Assembly: GCA_018067045.1 (NCBI GenBank)
Contig: JAGPVL010000027.1
Span: 1 to 64,000 of the forward strand
Length of the DNA: 64,000 nucleotides
Source of the DNA: Gammaproteobacteria bacterium
GTDB lineage: Bacteria > Pseudomonadota > Gammaproteobacteria > Pseudomonadales > Alcanivoracaceae
Direction of reading: 5' to 3'
A program made the translations under genes and the position numbers. Positions 1 to 11,222 of this stretch are shown one piece after another. Every line of letters starts with the position of its first letter. The first letter of the stretch is position 1. The notes beneath the pieces are model-generated. The model worked only from the letters and a program-made list of their open reading frames with translations, was not told the origin of the DNA and did no database searches.

Positions 1-64
1 GCTCTTTAAAATTGACCACTACCATTGCGGTTTGGTCATAAGAGTATCTCTTGAAATTTGGCAT
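1..64 (-). CDS. IS1182-family transposase, N-terminal fragment (partial at window edge)
   Basis: An ATG at 62-64 on the minus strand opens a frame of about 21 residues to the window edge. It begins MPNFKRYSYDQTAMVVVNF, which resembles the first residues of IS1182-family DDE transposases (a short basic start, a Y-S/E-Y-x-Q-T segment, then V-x-F). The frame has no stop before the edge. The catalytic domain is not visible, so activity cannot be judged. Confidence 0.5.
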   Translation of the reverse strand, partial: MPNFKRYSYDQTAMVVVNFKE

Positions 65-132
65 AGCTACAGTCCGTTTAGCGATGCTGAAATTTAGCAA
101 AAAACGTCGGCTTTTAGGAGTTTTTCTACAGC
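1..132 (-). mobile_element. End of an IS1182-like insertion sequence, truncated by the window edge
   Basis: The stretch next to the outermost attC core contains a terminal motif (minus strand CTGTAGAAAAACTCC, about 118-132) like the ends of IS1182-family elements. About 55 bases further in, a transposase reading frame starts on the minus strand and leaves the window at position 1. The element abuts the attC core at 132-138, so it appears to have inserted at or beside a recombination site. The family call rests on the terminus and about 21 residues of protein, so it is tentative. The far end and any target duplication are outside the window. Confidence 0.55.
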
Positions 133-206
133 CTCAACGCCCAAAGCAGCGGCGCGCGTCAGCGCGTCCAGCCACGGAGTGGCGATGCTGCCGTTGCTTG
201 TTATAT
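132..206 (-). repeat. attC recombination site of the outermost left-array cassette
   Basis: Read on the minus strand, the site opens with ATATAAC-AAG (plus 200-206), which includes the stop codon of the preceding cassette gene. It closes with GGCGTTGAGG (core GTTGAGG, plus 132-138). The arms GCAACGGCAGC and GCCGCTGCTT pair imperfectly around a short hairpin, as in folded attC sites. The length is 75 bp. The core differs from the GTTRRRY consensus at one base and lies directly beside the IS end. Confidence 0.75.
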
Positions 207-599
207 TTTTGCAACGAGGTCACCATAACCCCAAATGATTGTGCCGAATATGGCAAAGATTGCTCCAATGTAGCCAGCCAGTTTGTCCATGAAGACTTGG
301 CGATCATATTCAATATCTTCGGGGCTGTGCTCTACCTGAACTATTTGCCGACCATTTTCATCGGTGTAGGAGCCTTTAACTTTACTAATTCTCGCTCCGG
401 TGGGTGTTCCACCAACACCTTTAACCCCAAGCCGAAATATACTTCTGTAGCTAAGAATGGCTCCAATAAGCACTAGCAATGACCCTGAACGCTGAAACCA
501 AACATAGGTCTCATTTCCCCAGTCAGCATACAAAGAGACTGAGGCAATACCGATGCCCAAAATTGTCAACGTTGGAATGTTTCTAAAGACTCGATTCAT
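201..599 (-). CDS. Integron cassette gene: unknown three-TM membrane protein
   Basis: This gene encodes a 132-residue protein of unrecognised family. Hydrophobic segments lie near residues 9-24, 38-52 and 107-126, separated by a polar loop rich in charged residues, so an inner-membrane protein is likely. I start it at the ATG at 597-599. The longer frame from 632 would read through the upstream attC arm, whereas 599 lies just after the attC core, as is usual in cassettes. The TAA stop is inside the R'' box of its own attC (200-206), another cassette hallmark. Transcription would come from the leader promoter at about 1068-1096 through the previous cassette. No function can be assigned. Confidence 0.75.
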   Translation of the reverse strand: MNRVFRNIPTLTILGIGIASVSLYADWGNETYVWFQRSGSLLVLIGAILSYRSIFRLGVKGVGGTPTGARISKVKGSYTDENGRQIVQVEHSPEDIEYDRQVFMDKLAGYIGAIFAIFGTIIWGYGDLVAKI

Positions 600-605
600 A
601 ATGAA

Positions 606-701
606 ATATAACGCTGCCAACACGGGCCGCAATGTAGCGGCGAAGCCGCGAAATGGAGGTCCAGCCAGCTCTGCTGGCGCACGTGCTTGGCCTTGTTAAG
701 C
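606..701 (-). repeat. attC recombination site between the two left-array cassettes
   Basis: On the minus strand the site runs from GCTTAAC-AAG (plus 695-701) to GCGTTATAT (plus 606-612), 96 bp in all. The outer arms GGCCAAGCACG and CGTGTTGGC are complementary with a mismatch, and there is an internal GCGGCTTCGCCGC hairpin. The core site is followed seven bases later by the next cassette's ATG. Confidence 0.8.
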
Positions 702-956
702 ATTGCTACGCGACCGCCTCATATTTTTGACGCCGCCCACCAAAGTTAAGACATTACCTGTCGCTGTCACCAGCCACAATGTAATAGCTATGCTTGGCTG
801 GCGGCACCGGACGTCCTCATGGAAAAGAGAGAATTCATTTAGGCATGCACCACTGGCCAAGCTAGAAGATGAAAAAAACCACATGAGCGCCCACAGCGAG
901 ACCAGAAACAGGATCGCTGAAATCGACAGTTGAATAGTGGCTCGGCGCTTATGCAT
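696..956 (-). CDS. Integron cassette gene: unknown two-TM protein, first cassette of the left array
   Basis: This 86-residue protein has two hydrophobic segments (about residues 9-35 and 54-74) joined by a loop with three cysteines, and a basic C-terminus. That predicts a small inner-membrane protein with a periplasmic Cys-containing loop. The ATG at 954-956 is ten bases from the attI-like core at 966-972, so it occupies the first cassette position and should be the best-expressed gene of this array. The stop TAA is within the R'' box of its attC. No family is recognised. Confidence 0.75.
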   Translation of the reverse strand: MHKRRATIQLSISAILFLVSLWALMWFFSSSSLASGACLNEFSLFHEDVRCRQPSIAITLWLVTATGNVLTLVGGVKNMRRSRSNA

Positions 957-965
957 GGAAATGAC

Positions 966-985
966 TCTTAACAGTTTATTAACTT
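966..985 (-). other. attI-like primary recombination site, left copy
   Basis: On the minus strand the leader ends in AATAAACTGTTAAGA. The GTTAAGA box (plus 966-972) fits the integron core-site pattern. Sequence identity with the right leader begins exactly at the AAC of this box and continues into the leader, while the cassette side is unrelated. That is what site-specific cassette insertion at attI would leave. Confidence 0.6.
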
Positions 986-1067
986 GATGCCGCCTGCCTA
1001 TTCTCTATCCACTTAATTCTGAATAGGGGAATTTGGATGTCGGCATATAATTATTTTGAATCAGCAT

Positions 1068-1096
1068 GTTATAGCGTTATTGAGAACTTATCTCAA
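1068..1096 (-). promoter_or_regulatory. Cassette promoter Pc, left array
   Basis: On the minus strand this reads TTGAGA (plus 1091-1096), a 17-bp spacer, then TATAAC (plus 1068-1073), pointing at the first cassette about 100 bp away. The same hexamers and spacing occur in the right leader, although the surrounding sequence has diverged. That conservation supports real promoter function. Confidence 0.7.
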
Positions 1097-1305
1097 AGGT
1101 TATATCCGGCCGACATCCGCTTAATTAGGTGTTTTCAGTGCATGACGCCAATTTGGTGATGCGTACGCCTACCTCCATATTATCAATTGGTTGCGATGGC
1201 TGGGGCCGCATTCGTATTCTCGTTTCGCAGTGCGGCCTTTGAGCACGGGCCTTGGCGTTATGGTCGCCAAGGACTGATGGCGCGTTCTTACATGCTCTTT
1301 CAGAG

Positions 1306-1340
1306 AATAAAAAAGGCCGCGATTGCGGTCTTTTTTATTA
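1306..1340. terminator. Remnant of the pckA terminator, left copy
   Basis: An A-tract, a GGCCGCGATTGCGGTC stem-loop and a T-tract match the intact pckA terminator at 9007-9042. One arm base has changed, giving a G-T pair. Confidence 0.7.
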
Positions 1341-1374
1341 ATGCACGCTTTGTGGTTCGGCAGCTAGGTTGGTC

Positions 1375-1480
1375 TTATTGAGGAGACTTGTCTGATTCGT
1401 CGGCGTATTTCTCTGCAACGTTGGCGAAAAACTGCGTAGCCATTTCCTTTTCTTGGAGGTCAGACGCGGTGTTGTCTTGC
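1375..1480 (-). pseudogene. 3' remnant of a diverged pckA copy
   Basis: On the minus strand, codons ending at the TAA at 1375-1377 read ...ATQFFANVAEKYADESDK... This aligns with the C-terminus of the intact PckA ([18 protein letters not shown]). Only about the last 30-40 residues are recognisable; similarity fades before about 1500 and there is no start. The divergence at protein level suggests it came from another species' pckA locus, not from the adjacent gene. It sits in the same orientation and the same distance from its leader as pckA does at 9066. Confidence 0.75.
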
Positions 1481-1707
1481 TTGTCTACGAATGCGGAGAA
1501 ATACGGCCGCGCGAGCGGAACGCGGGAATCCCCTCATGATTATATGTATAAACATTGCGTCTTATTTGAGAACAGTGCATCCACATTGTGGATATATATG
1601 AAGGTAAAAAATGCCGCTAGCATTCATTTATCGGTCAGCAGCGGCATCTCTGGATGCTTGGTGCTGGACCCGTTAACTCCATAAAATTTACGGTGTGGGA
1701 AAATATT

Positions 1708-2316
1708 ATGTATGAACTGTATTTTTTGCCGGGCGCCTGCTCACTGGCGACTCAAGTCGTTCTACGCGAATTAGGCCAAGAGGTAAAAATCATTAATCGG
1801 CAACAAGTTGAAGGCTTTGAAGCCATTAACCCCATTGGTAGTGTGCCGGTGTTGGTTGATGACGGTGCGGTGTTAACTGAAGGGGCCGCGATCATGACAT
1901 ACCTTCTTAAAAAGCACCGCAGTCCGTTACTTCCTAGTGGTGGCGCGGAGTATCAAGCCGCGCTTCAAGACATTATGTTCGCTAATGCCACCATGCACCC
2001 AGCCTACTCAAAGCTTTTCTTTATTGCGCAGAACGTAACAGACGAAAAAACGAAGCGTGGTATTTTTGATGCTGCCGCCGAAAGCATTCGGAAATTATGG
2101 GATGTTGTTGAAAGCAAGTTAAGCGATAGGCAGTACCTTGGCGGGGATCATCCATCCGCAGCGGACATTATGCTGGCGGTATATTCGCGTTGGGGCGACT
2201 ACTTTCCGGTCGACATCTCATTTGGTGCGCGGACGAGGGAGATGTTAGCTGCTGTCCAGTCAATGCCTAGCTTTGTAAGGTCTGTTCAGGCTGAGCAGGA
2301 CGAGGTGGCTAGATAA
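1708..2316 (+). CDS. Glutathione S-transferase family protein
   Basis: This 202-residue protein has a thioredoxin-like N-terminal half (MYELYFLPGACSLATQVVLR, then the NPIGSVPVL cis-Pro segment and an E-G-A-A-I segment like the glutathione-contacting ES motif). An alpha-helical C-terminal half follows, with a YLGGDHPSAADIMLA motif typical of the GST N-capping region. The ATG at 1708 is chosen because it begins right at the fold; a longer frame from 1654 adds non-homologous residues. It probably conjugates or isomerises small electrophiles in the cytosol. FrnE-like and tautomerase genes close by suggest a small detoxification or aromatic-type cluster. The substrate is not predictable. Confidence 0.85.
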   Translation: MYELYFLPGACSLATQVVLRELGQEVKIINRQQVEGFEAINPIGSVPVLVDDGAVLTEGAAIMTYLLKKHRSPLLPSGGAEYQAALQDIMFANATMHPAYSKLFFIAQNVTDEKTKRGIFDAAAESIRKLWDVVESKLSDRQYLGGDHPSAADIMLAVYSRWGDYFPVDISFGARTREMLAAVQSMPSFVRSVQAEQDEVAR

Positions 2317-2389
2317 CCTAAGCGAGTAGGAGAGGCATTGATCATAATGCCTCTCCATATCGAGATTTAGCCGTTTACAGCGAATATAA

Positions 2390-3031
2390 ATGATGAAGAA
2401 ACTGCAAATAACCATGATTCACGACTTGGTTTGTTCATGGTGTCCGATAGGCTATTACAACATCAAAACCGCCGCGAAAAACGTGGGTATTGACGTGAAT
2501 TTCAATTTTATTCCCTTTGAACTTAACCCCGGTATGGGCGATGAAGGGGAACTGATAGCCGACTATTTTAGTCGTCGGTTTAATTGGAGTGAGCGTAAGT
2601 TGCTGGGTTATCAGGATTCGTTAATAAAAACAGCCGCTACTGCCGGTGTTCTTATCGACTTTTCCAAGCGTCAATACTATTACAACACCCATAAAGGACA
2701 TTTGTTGCTGCATTGGTCAGAGCAATTTGGCAGACAGGTTGAGCTTAATGAAGCCCTTATCAAGGCCTACTTTTATCGCGGACTAGATATTAGCAATGCC
2801 GATGTTTTGCTCGATATTGCGGTGCAGATTGGACTAGATAGAGATTTAGCTAGTAGCGCTCTGTCCTCGGTTGATCTTGAACGAGAATTGGAAAGAAAAA
2901 TCGAACGACAAAGAAGGCTTAACATCGAGAGTATTCCTGCGTTTACCCTTAACAATAATGTCTTTATCTCTGGTTCTCAGTCTGTCAGCTTCTTCGAGAA
3001 TGCCTTGGCGCCATACGTCGAAAAAGTCTGA
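2390..3031 (+). CDS. DsbA-family FrnE-like oxidoreductase
   Basis: The 213-residue protein has a thioredoxin-fold CxxC motif at residues 15-18 (CSWCP) followed by a helical insertion and a late I-P-A-F cis-proline segment (about residue 186). This layout is that of FrnE and 2-hydroxychromene-2-carboxylate isomerase-like members of the DsbA superfamily. There is no signal peptide, so it should be cytosolic, unlike true DsbA. It follows the GST gene with a 73-bp gap on the same strand. FrnE relatives are linked to oxidative stress or polyketide tailoring; the exact role is open. Two adjacent ATGs (2390, 2393) could each serve as start. Confidence 0.8.
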   Translation: MMKKLQITMIHDLVCSWCPIGYYNIKTAAKNVGIDVNFNFIPFELNPGMGDEGELIADYFSRRFNWSERKLLGYQDSLIKTAATAGVLIDFSKRQYYYNTHKGHLLLHWSEQFGRQVELNEALIKAYFYRGLDISNADVLLDIAVQIGLDRDLASSALSSVDLERELERKIERQRRLNIESIPAFTLNNNVFISGSQSVSFFENALAPYVEKV

Positions 3032-3052
3032 GTATTGGATAGAGGGCTTATA

Positions 3053-3943
3053 TTAATGTTTATCCGCAAACCACTTTTCAAGATACTCTATGCACTGAAC
3101 AAGCTTTGATGGCACAAAATGTCTGGCGGGATACAGCGCATAGAGCGTTAGGCTGGGCTTTTTCGATTCCTTCAATACCTCGATAACCTCTCCATTCTCT
3201 ATGGCTTCACGGCACACAAAGTCTGGAATAAATCCAATGCCTTGTCCTTGCTTAATGGCCTCCATCATAAAAATTGTACTGTTTACGCGTAAATTCCCCT
3301 GAACCGCAACGCCGTCTTCAATGGGCCAAATGTTTTTCCCTTGAAAGTAGCTGTACACAAAGCAATTGTGATCCTCTAGGTCTTGCGGAGATGTTATGGC
3401 CGGGTGGGAGTTGAAATATTCCGGGCCTACGCATACGCAGTATTTGAAATGAGTGAGGGGGCGTCCGACATATCCCGAATCAATAGGGCGGCTAGATGCT
3501 CGAAAACCTAAATCAAATCCTTGCTCTACTAAATCAACATTCTCATCGCCTAAGTGAATGTCTAGCTCAATGTCTGGGTAGGCCCGCATAAAATCGGCAA
3601 ACAAAGCAGACAAATCGGTGATCCCGAGCGCCATTGGGGCATTGATCTTTAGTTTTCCACGGGGGTGGTGTTGCAAGTCCTGCACAAAATTATCCGCATC
3701 ATCAATCTTTTCCAATATTTCTCTTGCTCGTTGCAAGTACCCCTCGCCCAGGTGCGTTAACTGAACGTTACGCGTCGAGCGATGCAGCAAGCGAGCGCCT
3801 AGCGCGTCTTCAAGGCGACTGATTTCTTTGCTGATCATTGACTTGGAGGTATTGGTTTGCTCCGCGACTCGAGTAAAGCTCCCCAACTCTGCTAGGCGTA
3901 CGAATAATTGTATTGCGCGTAGTTTGTCCATTGAGGGGTTCAT
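3053..3943 (-). CDS. LysR-family transcriptional regulator
   Basis: The 296-residue protein has an N-terminal winged helix-turn-helix (about residues 5-64, with FTRVAEQTNTSKSMISKEI) and a periplasmic-binding-like effector domain from about residue 92. The short length and the S-K-S-M-I-S-K-E-I recognition helix place it near the CrgA/DmlR group. It is divergent from the NTF2-like/tautomerase pair and convergent with the GST/FrnE pair. By LysR habit it probably controls the divergent pair through the 3944-4120 intergenic space. The start could be the first Met or Met5; the latter gives the commoner MDKL beginning. Confidence 0.88.
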   Translation of the reverse strand: MNPSMDKLRAIQLFVRLAELGSFTRVAEQTNTSKSMISKEISRLEDALGARLLHRSTRNVQLTHLGEGYLQRAREILEKIDDADNFVQDLQHHPRGKLKINAPMALGITDLSALFADFMRAYPDIELDIHLGDENVDLVEQGFDLGFRASSRPIDSGYVGRPLTHFKYCVCVGPEYFNSHPAITSPQDLEDHNCFVYSYFQGKNIWPIEDGVAVQGNLRVNSTIFMMEAIKQGQGIGFIPDFVCREAIENGEVIEVLKESKKPSLTLYALYPARHFVPSKLVQCIEYLEKWFADKH

Positions 3944-4120
3944 CCAGAGTGTGAAAGCAGGCGTGCATGATTCGAATTGTCTTAAAAATAGAAACAGTAG
4001 GTTCTCATTGTATGTATTTATGCATGTTAATCAAATCACTAGGATAGGTCTTGTCGCGCTTAACGAGCTATTCAATTGTTGGAGCTTCGGTAAAAGGATC
4101 AACGATGAAGGAAGAGGTGT

Positions 4121-4516
4121 ATGGGAAATCTTGAATATAGAAATGACTTCGGCGCGCACGAATTTATGTCGGTCATGGAACTCGTAAAAGATTATTTTGA
4201 AGGCTTGCACCGCGGCGAGGTGGAAAAGCTGAGAGCTATTTTTCACCCAGATGCATTCCTAAAAGCGCCAGGATTGCGACGCAGCTTAGATCAATGGCTT
4301 GATGCAGTCGCGAATCGATCTGTGCCTGAGCAACAAGGGCGGCCTTTTCATTATAAGTTGCTGTCGATTGAAGTTATAAAAGATCAAGCAATGGTGAAAT
4401 TGGAATGCCCTTTGTTTGATCACAGGTACGTCGACTACTTGGGCCTTTTAAAGGAAGACGGGCGCTGGTTAATCGTGAATAAAATGTACACCGATTTACA
4501 GGATAGTGTTTCGTGA
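4121..4516 (+). CDS. NTF2-like/SnoaL-type protein (putative lumazine-binding family)
   Basis: The 131-residue protein has the cone-shaped NTF2-like pattern: an N-terminal helix (VMELVKDYFEGLHRGEVEKL), a FHPDAFL segment, and C-terminal strands ending DGRWLIVNKMYT. It matches small enzymes annotated as putative lumazine-binding or SnoaL-like. The ATG at 4121 has a good ribosome site (AGGAAGAGG) just upstream; an internal Met at 4166 is the alternative. It lies between the divergent LysR gene and a tautomerase gene, so co-regulation with the tautomerase is likely. The substrate is unknown. Confidence 0.75.
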   Translation: MGNLEYRNDFGAHEFMSVMELVKDYFEGLHRGEVEKLRAIFHPDAFLKAPGLRRSLDQWLDAVANRSVPEQQGRPFHYKLLSIEVIKDQAMVKLECPLFDHRYVDYLGLLKEDGRWLIVNKMYTDLQDSVS

Positions 4517-4617
4517 AATAGCTACGTAGAAATTAGTCATGCGTGGTCTTTGACTGGAAGAAATTAGAGTAGTTAATCGGAACTACAAAGTAATACTTTG
4601 ACCAAGGAGAAAGAGAT

Positions 4618-4824
4618 ATGCCGTACGTTAATATTAAGATAACCGATGAAAATGTCACAACAGAGCAGAAGCAGGCGCTTATCAGGGGCACTACGCAATT
4701 GTTAGTTGATGTACTCAATAAGAATCCGGCAACCACGTTTGTGGTGATAGATGAGGTTAGTACAGACAACTGGGGGATAGGCTTCGATCAGGTAACGAAG
4801 CTTCGCCAGTTGGCGGAAAAGTGA
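4618..4824 (+). CDS. 4-oxalocrotonate tautomerase-family protein
   Basis: The 68-residue protein begins Met-Pro, giving the N-terminal proline that is the catalytic base in this superfamily. It keeps the TTEQKQALI helix and the V-V-I-D-E-V strand with the later N-W-G-I-G segment. A ribosome site (AAGGAGAAAGAG) precedes the ATG. Monomers of this size form hexamers. It is about 100 bp downstream of the NTF2-like gene and is the last gene before the right integron array ends. Confidence 0.85.
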   Translation: MPYVNIKITDENVTTEQKQALIRGTTQLLVDVLNKNPATTFVVIDEVSTDNWGIGFDQVTKLRQLAEK

Positions 4825-4855
4825 GGGGGCAATTGATATAAGCGGCTTGCTGTAA

Positions 4856-4954
4856 TATTAACTCGGGGGCATAGCTTTCCTCATAAAACACCATTCCACT
4901 TGTAAGCCATAATTCACAATGACGGTGAAATTCTATGGGTGCCCCGAGTTATTA
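4856..4954 (-). repeat. attC site of the last cassette of the right array
   Basis: On the minus strand it runs from TAATAAC-TCGGGGC (plus 4948-4954) to CCCGAGTTAATA (core GTTAATA, plus 4856-4862), 99 bp. The arms AACTCGGGG and CCCCGAGTT are almost perfect inverted repeats, and CTATG/CATAG extends the pairing. It overlaps the last codons of the cassette gene. Nothing cassette-like lies beyond it, so it marks the distal end of the right array. Confidence 0.65.
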
Positions 4955-5310
4955 GGACTTTCTTGCAAATAAATGAGTCTGATGCCGTAATAGTTAATTA
5001 ACAACATGGAGAAAATAATAATTGTTGATTGTATTCCACTGTTAGTTTTATTTATGGATTGATACATGATTACTGTTAGAGTAAAAATTATTACTGAAGT
5101 GATTAATGTCCACAGTAATAAATGTTTTACAGATTTTGACCAAGCCATAAACACGATAAAGAAATTGCTAAAACCAAAAGCTATTAATAATAATAGATAT
5201 GCCAAGAAATAATGATTTCCTGTCAGTATAAGCGAGACGGAACCGATCAGTATGCAATAAATTGAAAGTGCCAATGAATAAATAGTGAATAGGTAATTTA
5301 GAGCCTTCAT
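4933..5310 (-). CDS. Integron cassette gene: unknown four-TM membrane protein
   Basis: This 125-residue protein consists mostly of four hydrophobic segments (about residues 5-30, 35-57, 63-84 and 93-110). It is markedly more AT-rich than the chromosomal genes, which points to foreign origin. I start it at the ATG at 5308-5310, after the upstream attC core; a longer frame to 5340 would start inside that attC. The gene's 3' end runs about 22 bases into its own attC. No family is recognised; a small polytopic inner-membrane protein is all that can be said. Confidence 0.72.
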   Translation of the reverse strand: MKALNYLFTIYSLALSIYCILIGSVSLILTGNHYFLAYLLLLIAFGFSNFFIVFMAWSKSVKHLLLWTLITSVIIFTLTVIMYQSINKTNSGIQSTIIIFSMLLINYYGIRLIYLQESPNNSGHP

Positions 5311-5322
5311 CCTATTTATAGC

Positions 5323-5411
5323 CCCTAATGTCTGTAGCACTGGCCGCGCTGTGGCGAAGCCACGCTTTTAGCGGTCCAGGTCAAGGGGCGATTGTGGCTA
5401 CACTTGTTATA
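5323..5411 (-). repeat. attC site in the right array, with a degenerate core
   Basis: On the minus strand it runs from ATATAAC-AAGTGTAGCCAC (plus 5405-5411) to GTGCTACAGACATTAGGGG (plus 5323-5329), about 89 bp, with an internal GTGGCTTCGCCAC hairpin. The arm pairing is clear, but the core reads CATTAGGG where GTTAGGG is expected. That substitution at the cleavage box may weaken recombination. Confidence 0.7.
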
Positions 5412-5418
5412 TTTTGGT

Positions 5419-5793
5419 TTACGCACGCACTCTCCACTCGGATATTTTATCACCATCTTCGGTGACGGACTCATAGGTCTGGGCATTACTATGCGGGTCA
5501 TTTAAATTAAATGGACGATCTAGCGCCCCAAGTAATAATAGTTACTCCTGAAATACTAGCTTTCCATTGATTGGATAACATGCCCAGGATCGAATGAAAT
5601 TGGAGTTGTTAGGATCAGTTATTGAGGTAATAAAACACACTGCATTCCCGCCCAACAACTCTTCAGACGCCTTAACCCAGTGATTTTCGTAATCTAACTT
5701 TGACCAAAACGAAAAATCAGAATCAAATAACTCTTTAAAGTCATCTATCTGAATCGATCCTTTGCCATGATCTTCTATTGAAAATTGATACAT
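5419..5793 (-). CDS. Integron cassette gene: unknown soluble protein; TAA at 5542 splits the frame
   Basis: The ATG at 5791-5793 directly follows the attC core and opens an 83-codon frame that ends at TAA 5542-5544. Beyond that stop the same frame stays open for 40 more codons (including ...TYESVTEDGDKISEWRVRA) and ends at TAA 5419-5421, just before the attC. This placement is normal for cassette genes, whereas the first stop leaves an unusual 130-bp trailer. The ancestral protein was therefore probably about 124 residues. The copy is either truncated by a nonsense mutation or read through. The protein is acidic, has no TM segment, and its family is not recognised. Confidence 0.6.
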
Positions 5794-5877
5794 AGTTAAC
5801 GCGAGCAGCACGCGCGGCTTTGTAGTGGAGGCGAATCCGTAAAGGAAAATCCGTCGCTGTGCCTGAGATTGTTATGC
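5794..5877 (-). repeat. attC site following the GTPase cassette
   Basis: On the minus strand it runs from GCATAAC-AATCTCAGGCACAGCG (plus 5871-5877) to CGTGCTGCTCGCGTTAACT (core GTTAACT, plus 5794-5800), 84 bp. An inner GGATTTTCC/GGATTC hairpin is present. The next cassette's ATG begins at the base after the core box. Confidence 0.75.
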
Positions 5878-5881
5878 ATAT

Positions 5882-7747
5882 CTATTCAGCCCCCAACATA
5901 TCTCGCACTTCATTTACATAACGCAGCCATTCATCAAGCACCAGTCCAGTAACGCTGGATTCAAACACTGGATACTTTCGCGTTTGAAACCAATTTCCAG
6001 AGGTTCCGGAAACTCTATCCTTGTACCCAGGGCCCATCCCCCACTCTTTAAACAAACTATTCCAGAGCTGTTGATCTGACGAAAGGTTTGCTTCATAAAC
6101 CGTACGCCCTTTAGAAAACGCTTTTTGGTAAATATCACCAAGTCGTTTCTCAGTTGTTTGTTTTAACTGTTTAAGCAGTGCATAGGCAGGCTGGAGTTCA
6201 TTCTGGGATAGCATGTTATCGATAAGCACAATCAATTCATCCTTGAGGGTGCCGACTTGATCAACAACTTGCTCACGGGCACCGGTCGCTAAAAGCTGAT
6301 AGTAATCCAGGTTGTGCCATTCCCCCCGGCGATTGACACTAGCTCGAACACTTGCGGCATATGTCCCCGTGTTCTTAATGTCATTAATCAATGGCAAAAA
6401 ATATTCTTTTAGCGCGGGGGAGCAGTCTTGAGCCTTTTTTATCCATGGTTCCAGCGTGTTCTTGACCTGACCCTTCGCCGCTTTAGCTGACTGAGAGGTT
6501 AGTTCAGTTTCGATGTCTCTAATAGCCTTCTCGATGTCGGACATATCCTGAAAGTATTGGTCACGTAGCGCAGATATTTTTTCGGTCAAAAAATTTTTGA
6601 TCTTGTTTGGATCGTCAGACTTAACATCGAAAAATTGCACATCTAGGTTGTCCAATTGTAGTGTGTGCTTTAAATCATTGATCACATGCTCAGTACGAAT
6701 TTCTCGTCCCTCAATTTTGTCACCGACAGGTTCATCTATGTCGATAACTTTTTCAGCTTCACTCTTCCTGTCCAGAATTAACAGAACAGTTTCTTTGGAA
6801 ACTCGTTGGCTTAGACCTGCATCCCTGGCAAGTTTGAGCAACCCTGACATTGTTTTATCGGGTGCTTCATTGAATCGGCAGCACAATACACTAACAGTGC
6901 GATTATTGGTAAGACAGCTATCAAGGTCGGCACGGTTAACCGTTTGATCAACACCTTTTGTATCAATTACTGACAGCGCGTAATTGATGTTATCGAAAAG
7001 TCTTCTCGGCACCAATATGCGTATATGCTTGGATAAACCAACGCTTGGATGAGTGCAGCTATTGATGGATTTGAATGTTGTATGCAGCCATTCGTTTTGA
7101 TCTATCCCATCATCATTAATGAATCGCGTTTGATGACGAGCAGGGAAATCAATACGTTCCAACAACCCCTCCGCTAAAGATTCGACAGATTGGTAATTGG
7201 CAGCAAAGTTTTTAGCGTTATCGGTAGTAATTCGCTTTCCTTCGGAGTTTTTCGTTCGAGATATCCGGAGGTCGAGCATGTTGCGGAGCGCTCTTTCAAC
7301 TTCGGCACTTAGTTTAAATGACTCTGCATTATCCGATTCTGCAATATCGGATATATCTAAGTACTGAGCAAAGTCGGTGAGATAGTTTCTTACTTCGGCT
7401 TCGGAATGCGGAGTTAGTTCGATCTCTAGCTCGGTGCCAGCAGAAATTTCCACTTCGCAAAGCGTGGTCCGACCGCTACCTGTACTAAGGACTGGCTCTT
7501 CTCCATCCAACAAGCAAAGTAGGTGACATATGGCAGTTGTCTTTCCGGTGCCGACGTTACCGATAAATGCCAGCCTCTGATCTGAATTTGAGAGGTAACC
7601 AACAGCATCGTCAAATAGCTCCTGATGGTTAGCTAGCTGCTTCCGAGTTGCGTTCTCCTTCGGGAGTTTTTTCGTCAGGTTTTCAATTATTTCATGCAGA
7701 ACCTTTTGTCGATCTTTCAGATCATTAGCTTCAATTTCTATATTCAT
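5882..7747 (-). CDS. Integron cassette gene: large dynamin-like P-loop GTPase
   Basis: The 621-residue protein has an N-terminal helical lead, a P-loop at about residues 62-70 (GNVGTGKTT), a switch-like S-G-R-T-T segment about 25 residues later, and a D-T-K-G G3 box near residue 262 (VIDTKGVDQ). A LILDRKSEAEKV segment takes the place expected for a G4 region. The C-terminal 250 residues are mainly helical and probably coiled-coil. This order fits the bacterial dynamin-like group, which remodel membranes or act in stress and phage defence. The AGAGGA ribosome site sits eight bases before the ATG at 7747. At about 2 kb it is far longer than a usual cassette. Its function here is inferred only. 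Confidence 0.75.
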   Translation of the reverse strand: MNIEIEANDLKDRQKVLHEIIENLTKKLPKENATRKQLANHQELFDDAVGYLSNSDQRLAFIGNVGTGKTTAICHLLCLLDGEEPVLSTGSGRTTLCEVEISAGTELEIELTPHSEAEVRNYLTDFAQYLDISDIAESDNAESFKLSAEVERALRNMLDLRISRTKNSEGKRITTDNAKNFAANYQSVESLAEGLLERIDFPARHQTRFINDDGIDQNEWLHTTFKSINSCTHPSVGLSKHIRILVPRRLFDNINYALSVIDTKGVDQTVNRADLDSCLTNNRTVSVLCCRFNEAPDKTMSGLLKLARDAGLSQRVSKETVLLILDRKSEAEKVIDIDEPVGDKIEGREIRTEHVINDLKHTLQLDNLDVQFFDVKSDDPNKIKNFLTEKISALRDQYFQDMSDIEKAIRDIETELTSQSAKAAKGQVKNTLEPWIKKAQDCSPALKEYFLPLINDIKNTGTYAASVRASVNRRGEWHNLDYYQLLATGAREQVVDQVGTLKDELIVLIDNMLSQNELQPAYALLKQLKQTTEKRLGDIYQKAFSKGRTVYEANLSSDQQLWNSLFKEWGMGPGYKDRVSGTSGNWFQTRKYPVFESSVTGLVLDEWLRYVNEVRDMLGAE

Positions 7748-7799
7748 TTACCGTATCCTCTGATTCCTATTAGCCAACTCTCCGAAGCTATCCTTAATT

Positions 7800-7847
7800 G
7801 CGTAACGCCGCCGACACGCGCTTGTCGCGTGCTTGGCTTTGTTATGC
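7800..7847 (-). repeat. Short attC site after the DUF4279 cassette
   Basis: On the minus strand it runs from GCATAAC-AAAGCCAAGCACG (plus 7841-7847) to CGTGTCGGCGGCGTTACGC (core GTTACGC, plus 7800-7806). It is only 48 bp, near the lower limit for attC. The CACGCGACAAGCGCGTG centre forms a tight hairpin. Confidence 0.85.
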
Positions 7848-8255
7848 GATTTCTCGATCGTAGAAGCCAAAGCTTAAGCTAGCGCCAAGCCGTGCAAGCA
7901 TTGCGATGGTTTCTGCACCGATTGAGCCGCCCTCCTGCTCCGCTGAATTTTTTATCCACATCGAAACATCAATTTCAAAGAACTCGGGGGCAATCTTGTC
8001 TCTTATTGTGAGCAGATGATCTTCACCACCAATATATTCGATTAGGGCTGGGATCATCTCGCCGAGTCTTGCGGAGTCCTCGAATTCAATCGACCAAGAT
8101 GCGACCGAACGACGGAATGGCGTCCTGCCGGGCTTACTGGAATCTCCCCGCGAAACCAGCATTGACGCAGGAACCAAACCGACCAGAAGCTGAATGTCAT
8201 GGGGGGAAATCTCAAACCCTCTGAATGATAGGGTCGCAATAAACTTTGGCCTCAC
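7842..8255 (-). CDS. Integron cassette gene: DUF4279 domain protein
   Basis: The 137-residue protein fits the DUF4279 pattern: an early strand plus F-E-I-S-P-H-D-I segment, G-L-V-P near residue 28, a W-S-I-E-F strand, and a C-terminal L-A-R-L-G-A-S-L-S-F-G-F-Y strand. The family is small, soluble and of unproven function; members are often found in accessory regions and near toxin or immunity genes. The TAA stop lies in the R'' box of its attC (7841-7847). The ATG at 8255 is 34 bases after the preceding attC core. The family call comes from sequence pattern alone. Confidence 0.7.
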   Translation of the reverse strand: MRPKFIATLSFRGFEISPHDIQLLVGLVPASMLVSRGDSSKPGRTPFRRSVASWSIEFEDSARLGEMIPALIEYIGGEDHLLTIRDKIAPEFFEIDVSMWIKNSAEQEGGSIGAETIAMLARLGASLSFGFYDREIA

Positions 8256-8288
8256 TTACAAGATCCTCCGTTGAAAGCTAAGACAGGC

Positions 8289-8381
8289 ACCTAACGCCTT
8301 AGTAACCGGATGCTGGAACGCAGCGAAGCGTAGTGGAAGCAGTCCGGCGCCGTAGGCGTGCAGTTCACTTTCTTGTTATAT
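8289..8381 (-). repeat. attC site after the first cassette of the right array
   Basis: On the minus strand it runs from ATATAAC-AAGAAAGTGAACTGC (plus 8375-8381) to TACTAAGGCGTTAGGT (core GTTAGGT, plus 8289-8295), 93 bp. The GGCGTTAGG ending is the canonical attC terminus, and the GCTTCGCTGCG centre forms a hairpin. This is the most typical attC in the window. Confidence 0.88.
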
Positions 8382-8663
8382 GCTTTTCGATGCACCATAC
8401 AACATCACCGCAGCGCCGATAATCAGTAGCCCCTTGCCGGAAGCTTTAACACGATTCAAACCATTAAGGCTCCGTCTCAATTTTTCGGACTTTTCCAAGT
8501 ATGCAGAGTCTTTCCATTTGTTAATTAGTTGCGCTTGGGCGTGCTCTGATGCCGGCGCCCCAAGCAACCGCGGTAAAAACCAGAGCACCCCGCAAAGCGT
8601 AGCCAGCCACGCCCCTACGGGAATCGGCTCAAAATAATCTATAAGAAAAGCGGTAAAACTCAT
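8376..8663 (-). CDS. Integron cassette gene: unknown two-TM protein, first cassette of the right array
   Basis: This 95-residue protein has hydrophobic segments at about residues 4-33 and 77-91, around a basic, helix-prone middle (KWKDSAYLEKSEKLRRSLN). A hairpin inner-membrane protein with a cytosolic or periplasmic linker is likely. The ATG at 8663 is 18 bases from the attI-like core, so this is the first cassette and closest to Pc. Its TAA stop lies in its attC R'' box. The layout resembles the left array's first cassette (two TM, similar size), but the sequences are not obviously related. Confidence 0.75.
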   Translation of the reverse strand: MSFTAFLIDYFEPIPVGAWLATLCGVLWFLPRLLGAPASEHAQAQLINKWKDSAYLEKSEKLRRSLNGLNRVKASGKGLLIIGAAVMLYGASKSI

Positions 8664-8680
8664 GCGCTCAGCCTTTATGT

Positions 8681-8700
8681 ATATAACAGTTTATTAAGTC
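8681..8700 (-). other. attI-like primary recombination site, right copy
   Basis: On the minus strand it reads CTTAATAAACTGTTATAT, with the core GTTATAT at plus 8681-8687. AACAGTTTATTAA (plus 8685-8697) is identical in the left copy. The identity ends at the core, and different cassettes lie beyond it. Confidence 0.6.
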
Positions 8701-8782
8701 GATGCCGTCCGCCTATTTCCTGCCCGCTTAATTCTAAGCAGGCAAATGTCGATCTCGGCATATAATTATTTTTAATCAATAC

Positions 8783-8811
8783 GTTATAGCGGCATTAAGA
8801 ACTTATCTCAA
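8783..8811 (-). promoter_or_regulatory. Cassette promoter Pc, right array
   Basis: On the minus strand it reads TTGAGA (plus 8806-8811), a 17-bp spacer, then TATAAC (plus 8783-8788), about 100 bp upstream of the attI-like site and facing the cassettes. The hexamers and spacing are identical to the left leader. Confidence 0.7.
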
Positions 8812-9006
8812 AGGTTAAATCCGGCCGGCATCCGCTTAGCTCGGGATTTCTGGATTGATGTCGTTTTGATGCTGCGCGTCTCTATGCCTGTGCTTTCAAT
8901 GGCCTAGGCTATGTCTGGTTACTTGGATCGTGGCGCGGCCGTTGAACACGGGCTGGATGGTGTCTTTGTTATAAGGTTGTCGCGCGGGAGTGCGCGTTAT
9001 TTTGAG

Positions 9007-9042
9007 TAATAAAAAAGGCCGCAATTGCGGCCTTTTTTATTA
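9007..9042 (-). terminator. pckA rho-independent terminator
   Basis: A perfect GGCCGCAATTGCGGCC stem flanked by A- and T-tracts, 24 bp after the pckA stop. It is nearly symmetrical, so it could also stop transcripts from the other side. Confidence 0.9.
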
Positions 9043-9065
9043 CTGCAGACTGACTAATGCACGGG

Positions 9066-10610
9066 CTAGGCTTGTGGGCCTGCTTGGCGAACCTTGTCTG
9101 ATACGTCGGCGTACTTCTCGGCAAAGTTGGCGTCAAACTGCTTGGCCAGATCTTTTGCTTTGGCGTCGTACGCGGCGCCGTCTTTCCAGGTGTTTTTCGG
9201 CACCAGCAATGCGCTGTCGACACCGGGTACTTCTTTTGGCACATCAAGGTTAATAATGTCGATGTGTTGTGTTTCGGCATTGTCGAGTGCGCCGGACAGG
9301 ATGGCGTCGATGACGCCACGGGTTGTCGGGATGCTAAAGCGATCGCCTTCGCCGTACGGGCCGCCGGTCCAGCCGGTGTTGACCAAGAATACGGTTGAGT
9401 TAAATTCTTCAACGCGCTTCATTAGCAGTTCAGCATACTCGCCTGCGCGACGTGGGAAGAACGGTGCGCCGAAGCAGGTAGAGAAGGTGCTTTTAATGCC
9501 TGAGCCTGCGCCCATTTCGGTTGAGCCAACCAGTGCGGTGTAGCCCGACAGGAAATGATATGCCGCCGCTTCGCGTGACAGTTTGGATACCGGTGGCAGT
9601 ACGCCGGTTAAGTCGCAGGTTAAGAAAATGACGTGCTTCGGTTCGCCGGCACGGTTTTCGATAACGCGCTTATCAATGTTTTCCAGCGGGTACGCTGCGC
9701 GGGTGTTTTGTGTTTTGGACACGTCGTTGTAATCCGGGATGCGGCTGTCGGCATCCATGACAACGTTTTCCAATACGGCGCCGAATTTAATCGCGTCCCA
9801 AATAACCGGCTCGTTTTTCTGTGACAGGTCGATGCACTTCGCGTAGCAGCCGCCTTCAATGTTGAAGACAACGTCTTTGCCCCAGCCGTGCTCGTCGTCG
9901 CCGATTAGGAAGCGTTTCGGGTCAGCGGATAGGGTGGTTTTGCCGGTGCCGGAAAGACCGAAGAAAAGTGCAACGTCGCCGTCTTCGCCAACGTTAGCCG
10001 AGCAATGCATTGGCAATACGTCTTTTTCTGGCAGTAGGAAGTTTTGTACTGCGAACATGGCCTTTTTCATTTCGCCGGCGTAGCGCATGCCCGCGATTAA
10101 TACTTTGCGTTTGGCGAACTGGAAAATAACGCAGCCTTCAGAGTTGGTGCCGTCACGGGCTGGATCACATTCGAAGTTGGCGGCGTGCAGAATTTGCCAC
10201 TCTTCTTTGTTGCGTGGGTTGAACTTGTCTGGGCGAATAAACAGGGTGTTGGCAAAAAGGTTGTGCCAAGCGGTTTGCGCGGTGACTTTGACGGCAATGT
10301 AATGATCCGCTTCGGCGCCAACATGCAGGTGTGAGGTAAAGGTATCGTCTTCGGCTACGAATGCTTCAACGCGATCCCACAACGCATCAAACTTTTCACC
10401 TTCAAATGGGCGGTTAATCGGGCCCCAGTGAATGTGTTCGCTGGTGGACGGCTCATCAACGATAAAGCGGTCCATTGGCGAGCGCCCAGTGCGGTGGCCC
10501 GTGTCGCAGACCAATGCGCCATTGGCGGCAAGTTGGCCTTCGTGGCGTTGAATCGCCAGCTCCACGAGTTGTGCAGGGCTCAGATCGTTATAGGCGGTGG
10601 GCGTCGTCAT
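9066..10610 (-). CDS. pckA: Phosphoenolpyruvate carboxykinase (ATP)
   Basis: PckA converts oxaloacetate and ATP to PEP, CO2 and ADP, the first committed step of gluconeogenesis, in the cytosol. The 514-residue protein has the N-terminal HRTGRSP segment, the PEPCK kinase-1a P-loop [16 protein letters not shown] (about residues 216-231), the metal-binding G-D-D-E-H-G-W motif, and the [13 protein letters not shown] and [10 protein letters not shown] regions. The length is normal for the family. It is the last gene of the yrfG-hslR-hslO-pckA run, a gene order shared with E. coli, but a REP array separates it from hslO. Its 3' side is the attachment point of the integron region. Confidence 0.97.
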
Positions 10611-10819: not shown

Positions 10820-11222
10820 GTCTTGTCTGGGAGTGTGCTTGCGAGCGGGAAGTGCACGGCGCAAAGGCTGTTCGCCTGCAAGCAGCCTCCCACAAGGCAG
10901 TGCTTGTTGAGTGGAGGGTGCGGGTTTGGGGTGTTTGTCTTTTGTGGGAGCTTGCTTGCAAGCGAAGGCCTCGGAGCAAAGGTTGTTCGCCTGCAAGCAG
11001 CCTCCCACAAGGCAGTGCTTGTTGAGTGGAAGGTGCGGGTTTGGGATGTTTGTCTTTTGTGGGAGTTTGCTTGCAAGCGAGGGCCTCGGAGCAAAGGCTG
11101 TTCGCCTGCAAGCAGCCTCCCACAAGGCAGTGCCTGTTGAGTGGAGGGTGCGGATTTGGGGTGTTTGTCTTTTGTGGGAGCTTGCTTGCAAGCGAGGGGC
11201 GTTCGTCTGCAAGCAAGCGCTC
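10820..11222. repeat. Tandem 115-bp REP/BIME array
   Basis: Three near-identical units start at 10861, 10976 and 11091 (period 115 bp), with a degenerate half unit before them and a partial one after. Each unit has two REP palindromes in opposite orientation, CCTGCAAGCAGCCTCCCAC and GTGGGAGCTTGCTTGCAAGCGA, the classic Pseudomonas-type REP, separated by a conserved GTGGAGGGTGCGGGTTTGG spacer. Several frames run through it on both strands, but they only translate the repeat. It fills the pckA-hslO gap together with the pckA promoter region (10611-10820). Confidence 0.92.

Follow-up and report, generated by a model that had tools for sequence, protein, structure and literature searches.

How does a cassette promoter (Pc) together with an attI-like edge come to be kept in two diverged leaders that no integron integrase gene adjoins? 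The DNA that raises this question, hereafter called the window, comprises the first 64,000 nucleotides of contig C10 in the assembly of an Alcanivoracaceae genome (G000), which has 44 contigs totalling 3.3 Mb. Both leaders lie on its minus strand and are followed by cassette-like open reading frames (ORFs). At a probability of roughly 0.8, the leaders are best read as integrase-less chromosomal integron platforms of a CALIN-like kind, which would have kept attI and Pc and lost intI. An earlier note, made from the letters of this DNA, had described the promoter and the attI edge, and both are supported below; it had missed the absent integrase, the larger duplicated block in which the leaders lie and their further copies.

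The paired leaders and their further copies

Within the 64 kb, TTGAGA-N17-TATAAC is present twice and no more, at 1068-1096 (leader a) and 8783-8811 (leader b), both on the minus strand, while the number expected by chance was 0.00 (100 shuffles); its exact retention in both leaders, as claimed in the earlier note, is thus borne out. From TTGAGA to CTGTTA the two leaders align without gaps over 128 nt at 81.2 % identity, and over the longer stretch of 969-1123 (leader a) against 8684-8838 (leader b) 129 of 155 positions are identical (83.2 %). Both end at CTG/TTA (the slash marks the predicted crossover), and unrelated cassettes begin there. Identity over the 150 nt on the cassette side of the core box is 45.9 %, about the level of shuffled sequence (mean 43.9, 97.5 % point 48.4), so that the similarity between the leaders stops at the core box. 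The observation of paired leaders is confirmed as correct and beyond chance.

The note's statement that similarity stops at the core box holds, with a qualification that concerns the other side of the leader. Opposite to the cassettes, a weaker duplicated block extends past the leader, through the terminator of pckA (9066-10610, minus strand; the chromosomal neighbour of the platform) and on into a stretch at 1378-1479 (minus strand) that is a degenerate duplicate of the 3' end of pckA. The terminator, a hairpin at 9007-9041 on the pckA side of leader b that is duplicated at 1306-1345 on the pckA-fragment side of leader a, is identical in 37 of 40 columns (92.5 %). Values are 62.9 % for the pckA 3'-end copy (100 of 159 columns; 55.9 % over 34 codons by tblastn, E 1.5e-5) and 53.3 % for the DNA between leader and terminator (97 of 182 columns). 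On the assumption of a single duplication event, the remainder of the block would have decayed, while constraint or renewed exchange would have kept leader and terminator alike.

A search of 57 genomes for the leader gave matches in two of them. One is the genome of the window itself, which has a third copy on contig C36 (26168-26334) that has the module 8684-8905 of leader b (minus strand; outer end approximate) in common with the window. The other is the sole congener among the genomes searched, an Alcanivoracaceae MAG (G001, JARGPN010000007.1), with a copy at C1:208319-208479. The promoter-to-core pattern, when run over 46 genomes of the family, was likewise found in four places, all in these two genomes, and a reversed control pattern in none. 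All four copies finish at CTGTTA, with the similarity ending at the same base in each, and the first cassette ORF begins within about 30 nt of CTG/TTA. Invariant columns amount to 73 of the 128 gapless columns in the four-leader alignment; they include all 12 hexamer columns (hypergeometric P 7.75e-4) and nine of the 17 columns of the spacer. As the hexamers had been chosen from the two copies in the window, the C36 and congener copies are the fair test of their conservation. Both retain 12 of 12 hexamer bases, the congener at 84 of 128 positions identical to leader b (hypergeometric P 0.0048, with columns taken as independent). "Conserved" here rests on four copies, since the leader was found only in two species of one genus.

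Several other candidates were discarded. A pattern scan of genome contigs returned four stretches, of which the only one from the Alcanivoracaceae is the congener copy; those from MAGs named Desulfobacter postgatei, Methylococcaceae and Sulfuricurvum yielded nothing at E 0.1 when compared with the leaders by BLAST. Among 390 genomes of the order, with two candidates per genome scored, five match at E ≤0.001, including the two named above; the other order-level matches are 24-33 nt long (L114, L115 and one in G264), and L114 and L115 were judged to be due to chance. The same was concluded for a 28-nt leader match at C18:28557.

The leader edge as attI and the predicted Pc

In the congener, an integron integrase ORF with a truncated 3' end is read divergently from the leader, which is located upstream of it. 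The match of this ORF to TIGR02249 is confined to positions 1-181 of 315, which means that the C-terminal part of the protein is gone; its score of 192.6 bits, below the curated cut-off of 265, is as expected of half a protein. Its place beside a truncated intI marks the leader as the head of an integron, with Pc and attI. This IntI part, 205 residues long, shows 61-67 % identity with the IntI of G004 and with those of five genomes belonging to another genus (g8), 55-57 % with those of five more g8 genomes and 52 % with both intact IntI of G000.

The 46 family genomes contain 20 intI matches over the model cut-off. A CTG/TTA core was present upstream of intI at 16 of these and was not found at the loci L033, L034, L045 and L050 (the frame of L050 is shortened). 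In the intI-linked attI sites, the bases just before the core are alike (for example TTAATACGCTG, TGAATACGCTG and TCTAATAACTG), and the leader edge resembles the attI beside these 16 of the 20 genes. For 15 of the 20 sites, an unconstrained scan for direct repeats placed the best pair at a period of 15 and at almost equal distances from the core; these are three of the four leaders and 12 of the 16 others. When a period-15 repeat at -49 to -45 was scored, at most 11 of 1000 shuffles reached it in three of the four leaders and in 13 of the 16 intI-linked attI, counts that are to be read with the position having been picked from the unconstrained scan of the same sequences and with many of the 16 sites coming from close relatives. 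Leader a and the sites L035, L048 and L049 fail the repeat test, and the IntI of these three sites fall in another clade.

In leader b, the attI occupies 8684-8735 on the minus strand and carries the direct repeats AGAATTAAGCGG (8735-8724) and GGAAATAGGCGG (8720-8709) and the core TTAATAAACTG/TTA, with the putative crossover between 8687 and 8686. The attI of leader a (969-1020, minus strand) has the same core, and its repeat pair is unrecognisable (best 5/12). This layout is similar to that described for attI1 of class 1 integrons, in which the direct repeats DR1 and DR2 lie upstream of the L and R boxes and the crossover follows the G of GTTRRRY (PMC12901181). A putative G/TT crossover followed by differing cassettes is seen in all four leader copies, and upstream direct repeats as in attI1 in all but leader a. 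The four leaders agree only partly with the GTTRRRY consensus (GTTATAT, GTTAAGA, GTTAGTA and GTTATGC). The sequences of the repeats and the L box differ from those given for attI1 (PMC12901181); the period here is 15, and the repeats are putative IntI sites. A further hallmark, an adjacent divergent intI, is lacking at the window and on C36 and is present, 3'-truncated, in the congener. With the same edge beside the truncated intI of the congener, and with the core and similar last bases at 16 of 20 family intI loci, the identification of the leader edge as attI in the earlier note is well supported.

By themselves, the Pc hexamers are unremarkable: they match the sigma-70 consensus at 10 of 12 positions, the TATAAC -10 box being off consensus at its last base. 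A promoter scan made no call in 8376-9100, as it requires the -10 box to end in T, whereas here it ends in C. Conservation, and not the consensus score, is the evidence for a promoter. The -35 box of leader b (8811-8806) and its -10 box (8788-8783) are separated by 17 nt and are kept in all four leaders; 1068-1096 of leader a is a match to the same pattern. Measured from the attI crossover, the -35 box begins 125 nt and the -10 box finishes 97 nt upstream, so placed that the hexamers read into the cassettes in each of the four. A related hexamer pair with the same -125 position and the same spacing occurs in four of the 16 intI-linked attI (L039, 11 of 12 bases; L041 and L042, 10 of 12; L043, 8 of 12), and the other 12 have fewer than 8 of 12 hexamer bases within two bases of that place. 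The Pc proposed in the earlier note agrees with the 12 invariant hexamer columns and with these four related pairs, and TTGAGA-N17-TATAAC is supported, by conservation and position only, as a predicted Pc.

In the superintegron of Vibrio cholerae, Pc is similarly located in non-coding DNA, between intI and attI, and the cassette transcript is described as starting 65 bp upstream of the recombination point (PMC3948777), compared with the 97 nt between the -10 box and the crossover here. Strain N16961 is described with intI in cis, 179 cassettes and conserved VCR attC sites (PMC3948777), whereas the leaders studied here have no intI beside them and the attC are of varied length. The Pc reported for Pseudomonas stutzeri Q has the -35 box TTGAGC, close to the TTGAGA found here, a spacer of 16 bp and the -10 box TCTGAT (PMC8876359). 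It is placed in or by intI (PMC8876359), while the Pc predicted here is close to attI without an intI.

The duplicated block in the window allows the leader to be read as a promoter region that was tandem-duplicated together with the 3' end of pckA and that contains no integron site, since both the terminator and the 3' end of pckA are included in the similarity block. This is most improbable: the C36 and congener copies have no pckA neighbour, a truncated intI stands beside the latter, the edge and the repeats match those of other attI, and attC-like sites follow the leaders in both the window and the congener.

Cassette arrays and their chromosomal setting

The array behind leader b runs on the minus strand, away from pckA. 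Its first cassette ORF (8376-8663; 95 aa, without a Pfam match) is followed by attC-like site 1 (8289-8381), which was found by the scan and of which the same stretch occurs in other family genomes, and by a DUF4279-like ORF (7842-8255) that stays below the Pfam cut-off. Then come attC-like site 2 (7800-7847; scan and recurrence in relatives), an ORF of 621 aa with no confident family (5882-7747), attC-like site 3 (5794-5877; scan, and the commonest stretch among the matches listed in relatives), an ORF with a CdiI_N domain (5542-5811) and attC-like stretch 4 (5339-5409), which the scans missed, in which the R' box is degenerate by eye and which has a second copy at G000:C15:63204-63274. Behind leader a, a first cassette ORF (696-956) is followed by an attC-like site found by the scan (606-701); all these features are on the minus strand. 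The CdiI_N protein is of the contact-dependent-inhibition immunity type. A search of six cassette ORFs against defence families yielded one weak match (E 0.0094).

The attC calls were made with a relaxed scan, as energy-based and strict scans over-called or missed sites. Four sites were called on the minus strand of the window, one at the end of contig C34 and eight in the array of the congener, against a background of four in 100 strand-kb of control; in the C36 array no attC was recognised by the scans. A call at 4996-5047, the sole one on the opposite strand of window positions 1-9060, was taken as chance. With four attC-like sites by scan and no intI nearby, the window array has what defines a CALIN, for which two attC suffice if intI is absent from the neighbourhood; the C36 array, having no recognised attC, falls outside that definition.

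When 4850-8686 was used as a query, 31 of the 46 family genomes matched, its own genome included; at most six candidates per genome were scored, which makes this less than a full census. Apart from the window itself, the matches listed cover only four stretches, 8386-8289, 7852-7803, 5877-5794 and 5409-5339, of which three are attC sites of the scan and the fourth is listed within its own genome only. The sole exception among the matches listed is one in G003 that reaches about 98 nt beyond its stretch, and apart from these 98 nt the cassette genes between the recurring attC are absent from the matches listed. Shared attC with different genes between them is what cassette arrays would be expected to look like. 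The cluster between the two leader units (1654-4824; genes for GST, DsbA-like, LysR, SnoaL-like (by eye) and tautomerase proteins) gave no attC-like site on either strand in the scans. Elsewhere in the window, at 10857-11198, a 112-nt repeat adjoining hslO is present in three tandem copies with a spacing of 115.

Of the 30 pckA loci examined, 21 have ndh at a distance of at most 1.5 kb, that of the congener among them; the nine loci without it in that range include the window itself and L067, which has almost no downstream DNA. In G000, ndh and the gene next to it are found close to one end of contig C34 and are followed by a pckA-like hairpin and by minus-strand cassette-like ORFs, with the attC-like site mentioned above, up to the contig end. 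Cassette-like DNA is thus present at the ends of both C10 and C34, and pckA is parted from its usual neighbour, which suggests that an array probably lies between them with its middle unassembled. Probably, therefore, a single array joins the C34 and C10 ends between pckA and ndh, the join being one that we infer. The ndh-side neighbour gene (L107:5369-6118), of 280 aa in the congener, has an in-frame TGA in G000.

The genes for a TPR and a rhomboid protein are 13 nt apart in the congener and about 3 kb apart on C36, where a leader and cassette-like ORFs lie between them; the C36 copy thus fills a site that is empty in the congener. The array on C36 contains a second, 19-nt attI edge (L019:8704-8722) followed by another cassette-like ORF, a delta-attI-like boundary that resembles the delta-attI cassettes known from mobile resistance integrons (PMC12901181); here, the array is chromosomal. 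A 124-nt repeat with a REP-type look by eye occurs twice in the same array (L019:6782-6905 and 7933-8056; 114 of 124 positions alike). The platform of the congener lies by glmS, where G000 has none, so that pckA, TPR/rhomboid and glmS make up three locations, none common to both species. An ORF downstream of glmS in G000 (L105:3931-4731) looks, by eye, like a class D beta-lactamase gene.

Such a distribution could also result from a mobile head, that is, from leader-array units that moved between gene ends, either through recombination at terminators or through the action of an integrase at secondary sites. The different neighbours in G000 (pckA and TPR/rhomboid) and in the congener (glmS), with matching places free of a leader in the other species, are in its favour, as are hairpins of the type AATAAAAAAGG...CCTTTTTTATT, which are rare (four places in G000, six in the congener) and occur near leader-array units in both species. 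In G000, one is by pckA (9007-9041) and one by the ndh-side gene on C34 (L107:6160-6195); in the congener, the truncated intI separates the leader from one at a distance of 0.9 kb (L020:7393-7426). No such hairpin was found on C36, however, and the pckA of the congener has a slightly longer hairpin of this kind with no integron there. As the same pattern would result from separate gains and losses or from simple gene transfer, and only two genomes can be compared, a mobile head is considered unlikely.

Probable integron heads without an integrase

No intI adjoins the leaders of the window or of C36 and none was found on the contig of the window; as this contig breaks off at window position 1, its sequence does not show the far end of the array. 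The functional intI in cis of a complete chromosomal integron is thus lacking at the window. Loss or truncation of intI is well known, with nearly a third of intI being described as pseudogenes (PMC2426708), and attC have been reported to be kept without intI in Xanthomonas (PMC12444791) and in Treponema phagedenis (PMC3607928). The CALIN of, for example, Xanthomonas are similarly chromosomal cassette arrays without intI, located away from an integrase (PMC12444791). They differ from the present case in that here the head of the array, with Pc and attI, is kept and is present in three copies in one genome.

The leaders may alternatively be dead relics, old integrons without function in which the hexamers and the core have merely not decayed yet. 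The absence of intI beside the leaders, the missing repeat pair of leader a, the broken pckA fragment next to it and the C36 array, with its 19-nt attI remnant and without an attC recognised by the scans, all fit such decay, which makes this a possibility to be taken seriously, albeit not the favoured one. Against it, the leader has kept 83.2 % identity, compared with 53.3 % between leader and terminator and 62.9 % in the pckA fragment, which points to constraint or to later exchange, and no hexamer base has changed in the congener, where the leader has 65.6 % identity.

If the leaders are integrase-less platforms, as favoured here, each head would consist of a sigma-70-type Pc, with its -35 box at -125 from the crossover, followed by an attI with the direct-repeat pair some 20-50 nt before the core. 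Circular cassettes would be inserted at G/TT by an integron integrase, and the newest cassette would adjoin Pc and be transcribed from it. What can be read from the DNA itself is the build of the head, the boundary with the cassettes in all four copies, the truncated intI of the congener, the filled site on C36 and the separation of pckA from ndh, with cassette-like DNA at either contig end. The intI genes would have been deleted from the window and C36 copies, Pc would be active and IntI would bind the repeats.

Two full-length intI genes are present in G000, on contigs C18 and C25. Their attI resembles that of the leaders in the type of core and in the arrangement of the repeats, and differs from it in sequence. 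The platforms are possibly served in trans by these two integrases, one of which may still use the leader sites. If orphan heads are still used in this manner, an integron would be one enzyme with several docking sites and not one locus. It is quite unlikely that several integrase-less heads, each with Pc and attI, have been kept by selection after duplication at gene ends around the chromosome and are used in trans by one or two IntI encoded elsewhere; if this were true, the genome could take up cassettes at more than one locus at a time and express them there.

In the open-licence literature searched, no genome was found described as having several orphan Pc-attI heads, which is consistent with the claim of the earlier note that this Pc and attI were previously undescribed. 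The parts themselves are of a known kind; the interesting point is that several orphan heads occur in one genome. Several copies, together with intI-linked relatives, delimit Pc, repeats, core and crossover from sequence alone.

The intact intI genes of C18 (L021:1-2040) and C25 (L022:1-1512) encode proteins that are 93.7 % identical, and the two loci have near-identical attI and a common stretch of the first cassette. On C18, an attC-like site is also present on the far side of intI.
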